Positions 1,703 through 52,854 of a DNA stretch of 64,000 bases are shown here, in pieces; positions within the stretch are counted from its first letter, which is position 1; every line of letters begins with the position of its first letter. The translations under genes were made by a program, and so were the position numbers. Source of the DNA: Pseudomonadota bacterium (GTDB taxonomy: Bacteria > Pseudomonadota > Alphaproteobacteria > Rhodospirillales > Magnetospirillaceae); NCBI GenBank assembly GCA_021848545.1, contig JAJZUL010000011.1, positions 1-64,000 on the forward strand, given 5' to 3'. The notes under the pieces are model-generated. The model searched no databases, was not told the origin of the DNA, and saw only the letters and a program-made list of their open reading frames with translations.

Positions 1703-2110
1703 TTAGGATTGCGGTTCCGACCACCGCTCTGGAGCAGGATAGCACGCTTGTGCCAGCGCCATCAGTGCCCGGTGGACCTCCACCAGGGTAATCGGGTGAA
1801 GGCGCGTTGGAGCGGAGCGACTAGGCCGTTGAGGCCGCCGCAGCGTGCGGAGAGGCCCCATCGGGGCCCCGGAGCGCAAGCGAAGATAACCCAGAGATCG
1901 CGCAAGCGAGGATAGCCAAGGGCGCGGACGCGCCCGCCCGGCGATTGAGGGAAATAGACATAATGCAGGGGAAGCGGGTTCACCCGATTCCCCTGGGACC
2001 TCCACCATCGCCAGGGTGTCGCGCCGGCAATAGGCCAGTAGCGCCTGCCGCAGCGTCACCGGCTTCCTTCGCCGCCACCTTGCCCGAGGCCATCCGCCAC
2101 AGGGCGCCCA
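1703..2110 (-). pseudogene. C-terminal remnant of a DUF2779-like gene, interrupted by a MITE-like element
   Basis: Reading the minus strand from about 2060 gives ALLAYCRRDTLAMVEV, which matches the conserved end of DUF2779 proteins. At 2005 the reading enters a 212-bp repeat element and resumes after it as VEVHRALMALAQAC to the stop at 1703. Removing the element plus one copy of the 10-bp direct repeat GGACCTCCAC joins the two halves in frame as DTLAMVEVHRALMALA. The N-terminal bulk of the gene is absent from the window, so the gene was dead or truncated in any case. The left boundary of homology is approximate. Confidence 0.6.
1784..1995. mobile_element. 212-bp MITE-like element with 14-bp inverted ends and 10-bp target duplication
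   Basis: The element begins CAGGGTAATCGGGT (1784-1797) and ends ACCCGATTCCCCTG (1982-1995); the ends are inverted repeats with one mismatch. It is flanked on both sides by GGACCTCCAC (1774-1783 and 1996-2005). It encodes no protein. The interior includes CGACTAGGCCGTTGAGG, AGCGTGCGGAGAGGCCCCAT and GCCCGGCGATTGAGGG, and the right end folds as a hairpin. Close relatives are at 52511-52854 and a diverged one at 53749-53864, so it belongs to a dispersed family, presumably mobilised in trans. Confidence 0.75.
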
Positions 2111-7974: not shown

Positions 7975-8111
7975 AGTGTGATGCCCTAAATGTGCATCAC
8001 ACTCTAAGTCGTTTTGTTTTTCCCTCTGCCTAAGCGCGCGCGTCCGCGCGCTTGGCCGCGCCCTCAATGGGCGCTAGAGCGGCGTGCCTCGTATTTAAGG
8101 CTCGCCGCTCT
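7971..8111. repeat. Four-hairpin intergenic repeat element, copy 1
   Basis: Four consecutive palindromes are visible. TTAGAGTGTGATGC/GCATCACACTCTAA is a perfect 14-bp stem; AAGCGCGCG/CGCGCGCTT is a perfect 9-bp stem. GCGCCC/GGGCGC follows around TCAAT, then AGAGCGGCG/CGCCGCTCT. A second copy with the same order of stems is at 32601-32759. The element supplies the stop codon of the MFS gene. Confidence 0.75.
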
Positions 8112-22197: not shown

Positions 22198-22526
22198 GTT
22201 TGTTGGTTGGGCCTCAGGCGCCGGCGCTCGCGCTTGGCTGTCCTCGCGCCCTGCGGGCGCTCCGGCGCGCTGGTCTTGGTGCTCCGCTGCGCTTCGGGCG
22301 CATAGTCGCGGCGGGTTTGTTGGTTGGCCTCAAGCGCCGGCGCTTGCGCTTGGCTTATCCTCGCTCGCTGCGCTCGCTCCGGCGCGCTGGTCTTGGTGCT
22401 CCGCTGCGCTTCGGGCGCATAGTCGTCGCTGGTTTGTTGGCTCGCCTCAAGCGCCGGCGCTTGCGCTTGGCTTATCCTCACTCGCTGCGCTCGCTCCGGC
22501 GCGCTCAATGCGCATAGTCGTCGCTG
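22198..22526. repeat. Three tandem ~117-bp repeats
   Basis: Units begin GTTTGTTGG at 22198, 22315 and 22433, giving periods of 117 and 118 bases. The third unit is truncated, lacking CTGGTCTTGGTGCTCCGCTG. Each unit contains the palindrome AGCGCCGGCGCTTGCGCTT, CTCGCTGCGCTCG and GGGCGCATAGTCG. All frames are open, so spurious Arg-rich ORFs appear; I see no gene. The stretch from here to 22630 holds nothing else I can support. Confidence 0.8.
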
Positions 22527-22640
22527 CGCTCCTCCGGGTGCCGCAGGTCGAGAATTGTGGGGGCGGGTGGGGTTTTGGCGGTTGAAATATTGATTCGCCG
22601 CAGGCGCTGGCGCGGCGGCGGGTCCTGCATTATATTGGGG

Positions 22641-22934
22641 GTGTCGGGCTTGCCCGACTACGGTGCTAAACGCTTTGCGGAATAAGCGTTGCGGACCCGG
22701 GGGCGGTACCCGGCGCCTCCACCATCGATTTACCGGCCGACGCTTTCGGGCCAGGCCGGTATCATGGGGGCGAAACAGGATCGACGCGCGTAGTAAAGGC
22801 ATGGCTTGTGCTCGGCATGGTTCCGCCGTTATCGGGCCGTTCTCACAAGTGCCAACGACAACGTTGCTCTTGCCGCTGCCGCGTAAAAAACGGTAAGCGC
22901 GGTTCGGGGGGCGCCGGGCAACAGAAGTCCCCCC
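22641..22934 (+). ncRNA. ssrA: Circularly permuted two-piece tmRNA
   Basis: The acceptor piece ends with a T-stem CCGGG/CCCGG around GGCGGTA and CGCCTCCACCA at 22724. After a 41-base spacer the coding piece starts GGGGGCGAAACAGGATCGACG at 22766; GGGGGCG pairs with CGCCTCC (one G-U) to form the tRNA-like acceptor stem. This order is the permuted arrangement known in alphaproteobacteria. The tag frame at 22851-22886 reads ANDNVALAAA then TAA. The piece ends near the GGGGGG/CCCCCC hairpin at about 22905-22934. TATATT at 22631-22636 is a plausible -10. The outer boundaries are approximate. It rescues stalled ribosomes and tags nascent proteins. Confidence 0.93.
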
Positions 22935-23025
22935 ACAAATTTGCGTAAGAATGCTTCGGTATGGGGTCATTTGCGCAGACGTCGGAAACTGGGCGAAGAT
23001 TGAAGTCCAGGAGCAAGGGGTGCAT

Positions 23026-30737: not shown

Positions 30738-31463
30738 CTATTCTCCGCCCCAGCCGCAGCGTTCCAGCAAGGCCCGCATATGGTCGGGCACCGGGGCGGT
30801 GACGGTGATCGGCGGTTTGCGCGGGTAAAGCGGGATGGTCACCTGCCGGGCTTGCAGATGCATGGCGTCGGCGGCCAGATCGGCGGTGCCATGGCCATAG
30901 CGGGAATCGCCGGCGATGGGGCTGCCGATGGCGGCCAGATGGGCGCGGATCTGGTGGGTGCGGCCGGTACGCGGCCGGGCCTCGATCCACGCCAGGCGTC
31001 CCTCCGGCTCCCGTCCCAGGACCCGCCATTCGGTCACGGATGGTTTGCCGCGACGCCGATCGACCACCACCTTCCAGCCATGGCGGCGCTCCTCTTTCCA
31101 CAGGGGCAGATCGATGAGCCCCGCATCCCCGGCCGGCGCGCCGACCACCACCGCCCAATAAACCTTCTCCACCGCGCCTTCGGCGAACAGGGCGCCCAGC
31201 CGCGCCAAAGCCTGGCGATGGCGGCCCAGCACCAGACAGCCCGACGTGTCGCGGTCCAGGCGGTGGGCCAGCTCGGGCGCCCGCTTCAGGCCGAAACGCA
31301 GGGATTCGAGCAGGGGCGCAAGATTGTCGCCGGGTTCACTGGATTGGCGGCCTGCGCCGCCGTGGCCGCCGGCATGCACCGCGACGCCCGCCGGCTTGTC
31401 GATCACCAGCATCAGCCCGTCGCGATAAAGAAGCGGCGGGGAAGCGCCCTCGTTATCGGTCAT
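30738..31463 (-). CDS. RluA-family pseudouridine synthase
   Basis: A 241-residue enzyme isomerising uridine to pseudouridine in RNA. The catalytic Asp lies in HRLDRDTSGCLVLG, with later motifs ARPRTGRTHQIRAHL and PIAGDSRYG. It lacks an S4 domain and is short, which resembles RluA-like tRNA/23S enzymes rather than RluC/D. ATG 31463 overlaps the SPOR gene stop (ATGA), so they are co-expressed. RNA target is not clear. Confidence 0.9.
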   Translation of the reverse strand: MTDNEGASPPLLYRDGLMLVIDKPAGVAVHAGGHGGAGRQSSEPGDNLAPLLESLRFGLKRAPELAHRLDRDTSGCLVLGRHRQALARLGALFAEGAVEKVYWAVVVGAPAGDAGLIDLPLWKEERRHGWKVVVDRRRGKPSVTEWRVLGREPEGRLAWIEARPRTGRTHQIRAHLAAIGSPIAGDSRYGHGTADLAADAMHLQARQVTIPLYPRKPPITVTAPVPDHMRALLERCGWGGE

Positions 31464-32600: not shown

Positions 32601-32759
32601 TTAGACCGTGATGCAGAAAATCTGCATCACGGTCTAAGCGCTTTATATTTGGCCCTCGCCGGGCGCGCGCGTCCGCGCGCTTGGGTGCTCGCTCAATGCT
32701 CGCCGGAGCGACGCGTCCAAGATTTAGCCAGGCGTTTCATATTTCAGGCGCGTCGCTCT
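32601..32759. repeat. Four-hairpin intergenic repeat element, copy 2
   Basis: The first stem is TTAGACCGTGATGCAGA/TCTGCATCACGGTCTAA, perfect over 17 bp with an AAA loop (32601-32637). GCGCGCGCGTCCGCGCGC, TGCTCGCTCAATGCTCGCC and a final GAGCGACGCG/CGCGTCGCTC stem follow. The order and sequence match copy 1 at 7971-8111. It sits upstream of the SPOR gene, directly abutting another palindrome. Confidence 0.75.
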
Positions 32760-43669: not shown

Positions 43670-45130
43670 ATGGCGGGCGATCTTCGCGCTCTGGTCCGGG
43701 CTCTGCGGCGCGCGCTGCCCGAAGAGTCCGTGCTCAGCGGCAAGGACGATCTCAAACCTTATGAATGCGACGGTCTTGCCGCCTATCGCGCTTTGCCGGG
43801 CGCGGTCTGCCTGCCCCGCACCCGGGACGAGGTGGCGGCGGTGCTGCGCCTGTGCCATCAGGCCGATATTCCCGTGGTGGCGCGCGGGGCCGGCACCGGC
43901 CTGTCCGGCGGCGCCCTGCCCCTGGCCGGCGGCGTTTTGCTCAGCCTCGCCCGTCTCAACCGCATCCTGGAGATCGATCCCCTGAACCGGGTGGCGCGGG
44001 TCGAGCCGGGGGTGCGCAATCTCGCCGTTTCCGAGGCCGCCGCCCGCCACGGGCTGTTCTACGCTCCCGATCCCTCCTCCCAGGTGGCCTGCACCATCGG
44101 CGGCAACGTGGCGGAAAATTCCGGCGGGGTGCATTGCCTGAAATACGGGCTGACCGTCCATAACCTGCTGGGACTGACCGTGCTGGACGCCGCCGGCGAG
44201 GTGATGGAGATCGGCACTGGCGCCCTCGATTCGCCGGGCCTCGATCTGCTGGCGCTGATGACCGGCTCGGAAGGCCTGCTGGGGGTGGTGGTGGAGGCGC
44301 GCCTGCGCCTGCTGCCCCGTCCCGACCGGGTCCGGGTGCTGCTGGCGGCCTTCGCCAGCGTCGAGGCGGCCGGCGACGCGGTGGGCCGCATCATCGCCGC
44401 CGGCATCGTTCCGGCCGGGCTGGAATTGATGGATTCCCTGGCGATCCAGGCGGCGGAGGCCTTCGTCCATGCCGGCTATCCCCTGGACGCCGCCGCCATC
44501 CTGCTGTGCGAACTGGACGGCGCCCCGGCGGAGATCGCGGAAACCGAGGAACGGGTCGGCGCCGTCCTGCACGCGGCCGGGGCCACCCACATTCACAGCG
44601 CCGAGGAACCGGCGGAGCGCGCCCGCCTGTGGGCCGGGCGCAAGGCCGCCTTTCCGGCGGTGGGTCGGCTCAGCCCCGATTATTATTGCATGGACGGCAC
44701 CATCCCCCGCTTCCGCCTGCCCGAGGTGCTGGCCGAAATCGCCCGTCTGTCGGAACGGTACGGTCTGGCGGTGGCCAATGTCTTTCATGCCGGCGACGGC
44801 AATCTCCACCCCCTGATCCTCTACGATGCCGGCCGCCCCGGCGATTTGGAGCGGGCGGAAGCCTTCGGTCGCGACATCCTCGCCCTGTGCGTGGCGGTGG
44901 GCGGCGTCATCACCGGCGAACATGGGGTGGGGGTGGAAAAGCTCGATTCCATGTGCGCCCAGTTCGGCCCCTCCGAGCTGGCCCAGTTCCACGCGGTGAA
45001 AGCCGCCTGCGACCCGTCGGGTCTGCTCAATCCCGGCAAGGCGGTGCCGACTCTGCACCGTTGCGCCGAATTCGGCGCCATGCACGTCCATGCCGGAACG
45101 CTGCCCTTTCCCGAGCTGGAGCGGTTCTGA
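43670..45130 (+). CDS. glcD: Glycolate oxidase FAD subunit GlcD
   Basis: A 486-residue FAD-linked oxidase: PCMH-type FAD domain with RGAGTGLSGGALPL and GGNVAENSGGVHCLKYG, then a C-terminal FAD-oxidase domain ending with HAGDGNLHP and GEHGVGVEK. With GlcE and GlcF it oxidises glycolate (or a similar 2-hydroxyacid) to glyoxylate and feeds quinone. Its stop overlaps the glcE start (TGATG). Confidence 0.9.
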   Translation: MAGDLRALVRALRRALPEESVLSGKDDLKPYECDGLAAYRALPGAVCLPRTRDEVAAVLRLCHQADIPVVARGAGTGLSGGALPLAGGVLLSLARLNRILEIDPLNRVARVEPGVRNLAVSEAAARHGLFYAPDPSSQVACTIGGNVAENSGGVHCLKYGLTVHNLLGLTVLDAAGEVMEIGTGALDSPGLDLLALMTGSEGLLGVVVEARLRLLPRPDRVRVLLAAFASVEAAGDAVGRIIAAGIVPAGLELMDSLAIQAAEAFVHAGYPLDAAAILLCELDGAPAEIAETEERVGAVLHAAGATHIHSAEEPAERARLWAGRKAAFPAVGRLSPDYYCMDGTIPRFRLPEVLAEIARLSERYGLAVANVFHAGDGNLHPLILYDAGRPGDLERAEAFGRDILALCVAVGGVITGEHGVGVEKLDSMCAQFGPSELAQFHAVKAACDPSGLLNPGKAVPTLHRCAEFGAMHVHAGTLPFPELERF

Positions 45131-46251
45131 TGACCATGGGGGCCGACCGGACGGACGATTTGCGGGCGCGGGTGGCGGCGGCGGCCGAAAACGGCGCGCC
45201 GCTGGCCATTCGCGGCGGCGGCACCAAGGATTTCTTCGGCGGCCCCATTACCGGCGAGCCCCTGGAGATGTCCGGTCATCGCGGCATTCTCGCCTATCGC
45301 CCCACCGAACTGGTGCTGACCGCGCGGGCCGGCACGCCCCTGGCCGAAATCGAGGCGGTGCTGGCGCGATCCGGCCAATATCTGCCTTTCGAACCGCCCC
45401 GTTTCGCATCCGCTGGCTCCGCCAGCGATTCTACAAATAAGGGCGCCTGCGCGCCCGGCGGAACTTTGGGCGGGGCGGTGGCTTCGGGCCTGTCGGGACC
45501 GCGTCGGCCTTATGCGGGGGCGGTGCGCGATTACCTGCTGGGGGTGACGGTGCTGACCGGCCGGGCCGAAATCCTGCGCTTCGGCGGCGAGGTGGTGAAG
45601 AACGTCGCCGGCTACGATCTGTTCCGGCCCATGGCCGGCGCCATGGGCAGCCTGGGCGTGTTGCTGGACGTGTCGCTGAAAGTTCTGCCCGTTCCCCCCG
45701 CCCGGCGCAGTTTCGCCTTCGCCCTGGACGGGGGCGCGGCCATCCTTGCCGCCAACCGCATCGCCGGCCGGCCGTTGCCGGTGACCGGGGCCGTCCATGA
45801 CGGCGGGCGCCTGATCCTGCGGCTGGAAGGGTCGGCGGCGGCGCTGGACAAAGCCCTCCCCCTGCTGGAGGAAATGGCGGGACCGGCGATGCCGATGGAC
45901 GATGACGGGGCGTTCTGGACGGCGATCCGCGACCACACCCATCCCTTTTTCGCCGGCGATGCGCCGCTATGGCGCCTGTCGGTGGCCCCGGCGGCGGCGC
46001 CGCTGCCCTGGCACGGCCCGCAAATGGTCGATTGGGGCGGCGCCCAGCGCTGGCTGCGGGGCGAGGCCGATGTCGGCGAAATGCGGCGGATGGCGATGGC
46101 GGCGGGTGGCCACGCCACCCTGTTCCGCGGCCCCGATCGCGCCCGCGCCTTCCAACCGCCGGCCCCCGCCGTGGCGGCGCTGAACGGACGGCTGCGGGCG
46201 GCGTTCGATCCCGCCGGCATCTTCAATCGCGGCCGTCTGGGCGAGGTCTGA
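45130..46251 (+). CDS. glcE: Glycolate oxidase subunit GlcE, with in-frame 17-residue insertion
   Basis: A 373-residue FAD-binding subunit of the glycolate oxidase complex (LAIRGGGTKDFFGG, GLSGPRRPYAGAVRDYLLGV, GGEVVKNVAGYDLFRPMAG). Between FEPPRF and GGTLGGAVASG, where homologues run directly on, there are 17 extra residues (ASAGSASDSTNKGACAP) encoded by two palindromes at 45406-45456. The insertion keeps frame and may be tolerated as a surface loop near the FAD domain. ATG 45130 gives MTMGAD. Confidence 0.87.
   Translation: MTMGADRTDDLRARVAAAAENGAPLAIRGGGTKDFFGGPITGEPLEMSGHRGILAYRPTELVLTARAGTPLAEIEAVLARSGQYLPFEPPRFASAGSASDSTNKGACAPGGTLGGAVASGLSGPRRPYAGAVRDYLLGVTVLTGRAEILRFGGEVVKNVAGYDLFRPMAGAMGSLGVLLDVSLKVLPVPPARRSFAFALDGGAAILAANRIAGRPLPVTGAVHDGGRLILRLEGSAAALDKALPLLEEMAGPAMPMDDDGAFWTAIRDHTHPFFAGDAPLWRLSVAPAAAPLPWHGPQMVDWGGAQRWLRGEADVGEMRRMAMAAGGHATLFRGPDRARAFQPPAPAVAALNGRLRAAFDPAGIFNRGRLGEV
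45406..45456. repeat. 51-bp in-frame double-palindrome insertion inside glcE
   Basis: CGCTGGC-TCC-GCCAGCG (45411-45427) and GGGCGC-CTGC-GCGCCC (45441-45456) are two perfect hairpins joined by ATTCTACAAATAA. The length is a multiple of three. It is similar in concept to palindromic elements that insert in frame into genes, as described in Rickettsia. Confidence 0.65.
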
Positions 46252-52510: not shown

Positions 52511-52854
52511 CAGGGTAATCGGGTGAAAGCGACTTGGAGCGGAGCGACTAGGCCGTTGAGGCCGCCGCAGCGTGCGGAGAGGCCCCATTGGGGCCTCGGA
52601 GCGCAAGCGAGGATAGCCCAGGGCGCGGAGGCGACCGCCCGGCGATTGAGGGAAATAGACATAACCCAGGGTGATCGGGGTCACCCGATTGCCCTGGGAG
52701 CGACTAGGCCGTTGAGGCCGCCGCAGCGTGCGGAGAGGCCCCATTGGGGCCTCGGAGCGCAAGCGAGGATAGCCCGGGGCGCGGAGGCGACCGCCCGGCG
52801 CTTGAGGGAAATAGACATAACCCTGGGTAATCGGGTTCACCCGATTCCCCAGGG
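52511..52854. repeat. Tandem copy pair of the 1784-type repeat element
   Basis: The stretch starts CAGGGTAATCGGGT at 52511 like the element at 1784, and ends ACCCGATTCCCC plus AGGG at 52854. The core GCGACTAGGCCGTTGAGG occurs at 52544 and again at 52700, so the unit is duplicated with a 156-base period. Each unit ends in a strong hairpin (CCCAGGG...CCCTGGG; CCCTGGG...CCCCAGGG). It encodes nothing. No target duplication is evident. Confidence 0.8.

Follow-up and report, generated by a model that had tools for sequence, protein, structure and literature searches.

The window, a stretch of 64,000 nucleotides, carries on its plus strand the gene glcE (45130-46251), which encodes the FAD-binding subunit of glycolate oxidase (NCBIfam NF008439 GlcE, E = 1.2e-133 over residues 4-370; Pfam FAD_binding_4). 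Within this gene the sequence from 45406 to 45456 reads GCATCC-GCTGGCTCCGCCAGC-GATTCTACAAATAA-GGGCGCCTGCGCGCCC, followed by GGCGGAACT. Alignment to orthologues assigns the first six bases, GCATCC (45406-45411), to the host gene; the remaining 45 bp (45412-45456, plus strand) are one unit of a palindromic element that encodes the peptide AGSASDSTNKGACAP in frame. The unit consists of a hairpin P1 (GCTGGC-TCC-GCCAGC, 45412-45426), an AT-rich linker (GATTCTACAAATAA, 45427-45440; family consensus GATTC-att-GAATC) and a hairpin P3 (GGGCGC-CTGC-GCGCCC, 45441-45456). Both hairpins are perfect, as the first-pass annotation of this DNA had recognized. P1 differs from the family consensus GGCGGC/GCCGCC by two compensated base pairs, and its stem is lengthened to 7 bp by a flanking C and G, whereas P3 is identical to the consensus.

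The glcE product reads FEPPRFAS-AGSASDSTNKGACAP-GGTLGG, and its two nearest orthologues read FEPPHFGT-GATLGG (55% identity) and FEPPHLGA-GATLGG (51%). The net addition relative to both is 15 codons, or 45 bp, and the 51 bases and 17 residues first attributed to the insert are two codons too long. At the left junction (45410-45413, CC|GC) the element follows the target dinucleotide CC (45410-45411), where the relatives have GACC|GGCG and CGCC|GGCG in the same codons; at the right junction the target resumes with GGCG (45457-45460), again in the relatives' same codons, and the target CC|GGCG is intact in both orthologues. The early statement that glycolate oxidases normally have no insert at this position is correct for these two close relatives, which lack exactly the 15 codons, but does not extend to more distant GlcE proteins, which have a loop of other, somewhat longer natural lengths. 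The element thus lies in a length-tolerant loop. In the AlphaFold model of GlcE, residues 94-109, which comprise the insert (95-109) and one further residue, have pLDDT values below 50, and the insert is thus predicted to be disordered.

The folding energy of the insert is only moderately better than that of dinucleotide shuffles (z = -2.1 as RNA and -2.7 as DNA), and the role of chance was therefore judged by comparison. By this measure the insert exceeds chance: a covariance model built with the glcE copy left out (R2) finds this copy as its best match in the window (33.7 bits, E ~1e-7), and the 45-bp unit recurs across the genome. A search of Rfam returned no known RNA at the site.

Copies elsewhere in the genome

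When the 66-bp glcE region was compared by blastn with its own genome (a draft of 85 contigs, 99.75% complete), many partial matches spaced 45 bp apart were found. These define a unit GGCGGC-GGAG-GCCGCC / GATTC-ATT-GAATC / GGGCGC-CTGC-GCGCCC (16 + 13 + 16 = 45 bp), and the shared architecture is a P1 hairpin, a linker of 13-14 nt that is often palindromic (GATTC-n3-GAATC), and the hairpin GGGCGC-CTGC-GCGCCC. Head-to-tail arrays with a period of 45 contain 4, 3, 3, 3 and 2 units on contigs C5, C2 (two loci), C31 and C44; elsewhere the units are single. The glcE copy is the most divergent one, 60-67% identical to its closest counterparts and identical to them only in P3. For this reason the 19-mer proposed at the outset as a probe for further copies is unique in the genome; the expectation of further copies failed by identity (one match) and held by similarity, with about 22 units scoring above 40 bits at 12 loci (covariance model R1). 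Because the glcE linker is private to this copy, it is likewise misleading that the exact linker 19/20-mer retrieved nothing relevant from this genome, 60 relatives, GTDB contigs and viral contigs.

Copies lie both within and between genes. In this genome the genes that contain copies are uvrC, a chemoreceptor gene with a hemerythrin domain, phoH (near the N-terminus), a GST gene (at the N-terminus), a DUF6468 gene, an rluA-like gene and glcE. In a relative, G002, they are nrdJ (three units, two of them identical), pheS, dnaX, a Mu-type portal gene and a C5-methylase gene. The clearest case is uvrC, where the insert of 45 residues comprises exactly three units of 15 residues (PGAQAPDSDDRRPAS, PGAQAPDSDDRRPAS and PGAQAPDSKNGRPAS) placed before PGDDY and near the YDNSH motif, which is conserved. 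It is absent from about 50 relatives, that is, from every relative aligned: in all matched genomes of the family the alignment breaks at query residue ~431 and restarts at ~473-475 while the subject is contiguous. On the element strand the site reads ATCACCC|element|GGCTTAAG in this genome and TCGCCC|GGCGTCAG, or a close variant, in the relatives. The rluA-like gene holds a second copy within the window (31314-31361, minus strand), which was part of neither training set and scored 31.5 bits (R1) and 33.6 bits (R2) in cmsearch. It is reduced to P1 and the linker, with P3 mostly lost, and adds a net 27 bp (9 residues) in frame to an RluA-family pseudouridine synthase gene whose aligned orthologues have no insert.

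Exact net insert lengths were established for GlcE, UvrC and RluA. The copies inside genes stay open and, where checked, are a multiple of three in length. Four of the six reading frames are used in genes, on both strands, and the two most stop-rich frames are used in no gene with a recognized family. The peptides that result (AGSASDSTNKGACAP, PGAQAPDSDDRRPAS, GRAGAQSNESAASAA and PAAEAADSLNRAPAR) are unrelated from frame to frame, which points to the DNA rather than the protein as the unit under selection. One palindromic family is thus present at several loci within and between genes, and its intragenic copies are in frame and absent from orthologues, as expected of coding palindromes in the broad sense. 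The initial comparison to the coding palindromes of Rickettsia, with a different sequence, is borne out by the similar units at 12 loci and the empty sites in close relatives.

Insertion site and stem compensation

Among 29 insertions counted as independent, CC precedes the element in 17 and GG follows it in 19, and both occur in 11, against a CCGG background of 1.4% (binomial P ~1e-13, a value that treats the loci as independent). This preference for CC^GG could partly reflect an extra base or two belonging to the element itself. The ends of the unit, GGC and CCC, are constant although the flanks differ, and there is accordingly no sign of target duplication; in the sites that can be cleanly compared, the element was added at CC^GG without duplicating its target. 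The joint between units of a tandem array, CCC|GGC, is identical to the preferred target. Units within an array or locus are more alike (92%) than units from different loci (81%), which indicates that the arrays grew in place. In the P1 and P3 stems of 54 units we counted 15 double changes with compensation, 3 changes on one side only that leave the pair intact, and 9 breaks.

Distribution and vehicles

In GC-rich relatives a score of about 35 bits was taken as the lower limit for a copy, and weaker matches there were regarded as background. Besides this genome and G002, strong matches were found in a few other members of the family (G001, G024, G076, G027, G014 and G073), and in other families of the order: f19 (G291 and G252), f11 (G088) and f2 (G085 and G101). 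The f2 genomes have a 78-bp version with an extra hairpin-like segment in the middle (L221, L222, L227, L229 and L232), with 11 matches in G085. In a class-wide sample of 385 genomes only one, the genome studied here, exceeded the threshold.

Four transposase genes, which from their protein sequences rather than a family search we take to be of the IS66 type (G001:C162, G024:C143, G076:C31 and G027:C1:2484246), contain the element, in all of them at the same codon position. Two of these element-bearing proteins are only 57-58% identical to another, and the G027 copy is frame-broken. The element appears to have outlasted much of the surrounding IS66-type protein sequence. Further copies reside in phage-type genes, and IS66 elements and phages are plausible vehicles. 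A phage-like gene cluster in G000 (C65:14500-30500, L179) contains three strong copies of the 45-bp element and at least two that have decayed, and a homologous phage-type gene of G002 (C3:4450-4481) contains a shortened copy in the same place. Searches of plasmid and phage collections gave no match to a two-unit query, and the one viral contig retrieved by pattern has the P3 hairpin only.

A locus common to two genomes from different families (G024:C5:59357 and G088:C52:53503) is 79% identical over ~2 kb and has the element in the same place, which suggests horizontal transfer of the element together with its host gene. In G002, seven contigs (C67, C77, C11, C9, C75, C5 and C65:63260) have the element in the same place within a larger intergenic repeat (gagggatctttc ... 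ggcgctccgctccctcgggatgaca); here nested repeats have been copied together.

Discussion

We consider it probable, at roughly 80%, that the glcE insert is a copy of a short, non-autonomous, dispersed 45-bp DNA element that is mobile, as judged from one genome per species, and that is tolerated in frame. Its spread would have been that of selfish DNA, and the moving form was probably either a folded single strand or a small circle in which the joint, CCC|GGC, has the sequence of the target. Cutting and joining would be performed in trans by a Y1/HUH-type enzyme or another recombinase that either was lost from this genome or is borne by phages or IS66, and slippage or unequal recombination would let the arrays grow. 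Copies inside genes may survive because 45 is divisible by three and most frames are free of stops, and may be tolerated as surface loops, given that the encoded peptide is small, polar and predicted to be disordered.

The element could alternatively be a REPIN, a pair of inverted REP hairpins moved classically by a RAYT (REP-associated Y1 tyrosine transposase). The two hairpins with a spacer, the many copies and the lack of target duplication agree with this interpretation, and in the arrays that are best preserved P1 is in part an inverted copy of P3 (loops GCAG and CTGC around a GATTC/GAATC centre). The covariance model matches both strands. However, the inverted symmetry over the full length is weak across the wider family (0.59, compared to 0.49 for shuffled sequences), which leaves the pure REPIN interpretation a rival only; the GTAG or CGTC tag is missing, and this genome has no match to Y1_Tnp (PF01797). 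Nor do the Y1 genes of relatives have the element at their flanks, and a RAYT is not supported as the current mobilizer. In G002 the Y1 gene (C48:82530-82853, L170) is bracketed by a perfect inverted repeat of 29 bp and accompanied by a cluster of CCGTAACTTCC direct repeats, none of which corresponds to the 45-bp element. With no Y1 gene here and the G002 gene bracketed by its own repeat, the usual mobilizer of REPs is not supported, and we regard the REPIN explanation as unlikely.

Somewhat less likely still is that the units are kept for a function of the nucleic acid, such as a GANTC (CcrM) methylation site, a protein-binding site or an RNA hairpin, as in CIR. GANTC is present in 26 of the 54 units, where shuffled linkers lead one to expect 2.7, the stems show compensation, and the element was retained in IS66 transposases with no more than 57-58% identity; but GANTC is missing from half of the units, among them those of nrdJ and of the G001 IS66 gene, shared ancestry explains much of the count, and the distribution is as patchy as one genome in 385 of the class. 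Selection of the peptide, as a functional 15-residue repeat that spread at the protein level, would account for the in-frame state of every copy inside a gene and for the tandem 15-residue repeats. It is very improbable in view of the four frames on both strands with their unrelated peptides, the intergenic copies, and stems that covary at the DNA level. We give the least credence to the notion that no mobile element exists and that similar GC palindromes arose independently through local duplication or hairpin-templated synthesis: the genome is GC-rich, short palindromes are common in such DNA, and almost every GC-rich relative yields weak matches of 20-30 bits; however, an exact period of 45 bp, a P3 and linker motif that are invariant across loci, precise insertions, and a match to the held-out model are hardly expected from independent events.

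Taking the insert as a copy of a mobile 45-bp element, its closest parallels include the RPEs (Ogata et al. 2000, 2002), which in the accounts cited are dispersed palindromes in and between genes that lie in frame within conserved, unrelated proteins; in the one case tested there, an RPE in gmk, the insert was neutral or mildly harmful to the enzyme (PMC2229807, PMC10969869). The element resembles them in being dispersed palindromic DNA in and between genes and in frame within conserved proteins. As described in the same sources, RPEs are 105-150 bp long and form one long stem-loop, whereas the element has 45 bp and two short hairpins, which by description sets it apart from RPEs in the narrow sense; in-frame head-to-tail arrays, the CC^GG preference, and GC-rich hosts with genomes of 3-5 Mb are further differences.

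Intragenic GTAG and CGTC REPs are found in many species, in frame in genes for excinuclease and DNA repair, tRNA synthetase and pseudouridine synthase, and for the CGTC REPs, which predominate in alphaproteobacteria, no dedicated transposase has been reported (Di Nocera et al. 2013, PMC3733652). The element likewise consists of short palindromes with 4-nt loops, hits similar gene classes, and, as with CGTC REPs, is without a dedicated transposase. In contrast to these REPs, its units, as far as listed, have no GTAG, CGTC, TGTC or CCTC tag and end in GGC and CCC, its stems have 6 bp instead of the 8-9 bp beginning with AT, and it forms head-to-tail arrays with a fixed 45-bp period where CGTC elements are mostly head-to-head dimers (PMC3733652). 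The CIR of Caulobacter and Brucella (Chen and Shapiro 2003) share the alphaproteobacterial host, two hairpin arms with a linker, and GANTC in many copies; according to the passages cited, they are ~110 bp long, not intragenic, and have stops in all six frames (PMC2229807), whereas the element has 45 bp, is mostly open and often intragenic, and has GANTC in about half of its units. ERIC/RU and Correia/NEMIS are also non-autonomous and sometimes form in-frame fusions, but they are larger, duplicate a TA target, and differ in sequence and architecture (PMC2229807).

The element is best called a new family within the known phenomenon of in-frame palindromes, distinguished by its sequence, unit length, tag and array organization. 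A literature search on related genera, with subscription journals mostly outside its reach, returned no description of such an element. We find it possible, though doubtful, that more is involved, namely that selfish DNA which codes for protein has a further, new class: a codon-tuned 45-bp element of two hairpins, specific for CC^GG without duplication and with a tandem joint identical to its target, moved by an enzyme other than a RAYT, carried between genera by phages and IS66, and expanded in place into 15-residue repeats in proteins, including those of essential-type genes such as uvrC, nrdJ and pheS.

Earlier discussion of coding palindromes has centred on Rickettsia and Wolbachia. Both are obligate intracellular bacteria whose genomes are AT-rich and decaying, and weak selection could account for the palindromes there. 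The present copies lie in GC-rich bacteria with genomes of 3-5 Mb, with a unit fixed at 15 codons and precise empty sites, and in-frame arrays add 45 residues to core repair proteins. Along with the intragenic REPs, the element makes selfish DNA a source from which proteins in general gain new segments, and a defined insertion site with several empty sites makes the mechanism of mobility testable.

Other repeats in the window

Three other repeats were noted in the window. A different, intergenic-looking repeat of ~156 bp (GGCTATCCTCGCTTGCGC ... TTATGTCTATTTCCCTCAATCGCCGGGC), with internal GC palindromes, is found in tandem at 52541-52852 and again at the far end of the window (1814-1995). An 88-bp dispersed repeat with a long GC palindrome (CGCGCGCGTCCGCGCGC) occurs at 8010-8097 and 32639-32726, the two copies being 70% alike. 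A 117-bp repeat in two tandem copies that are 92% alike (22241-22474) lies just upstream of the tmRNA gene (22604-22935), whose match is to the alphaproteobacterial type.
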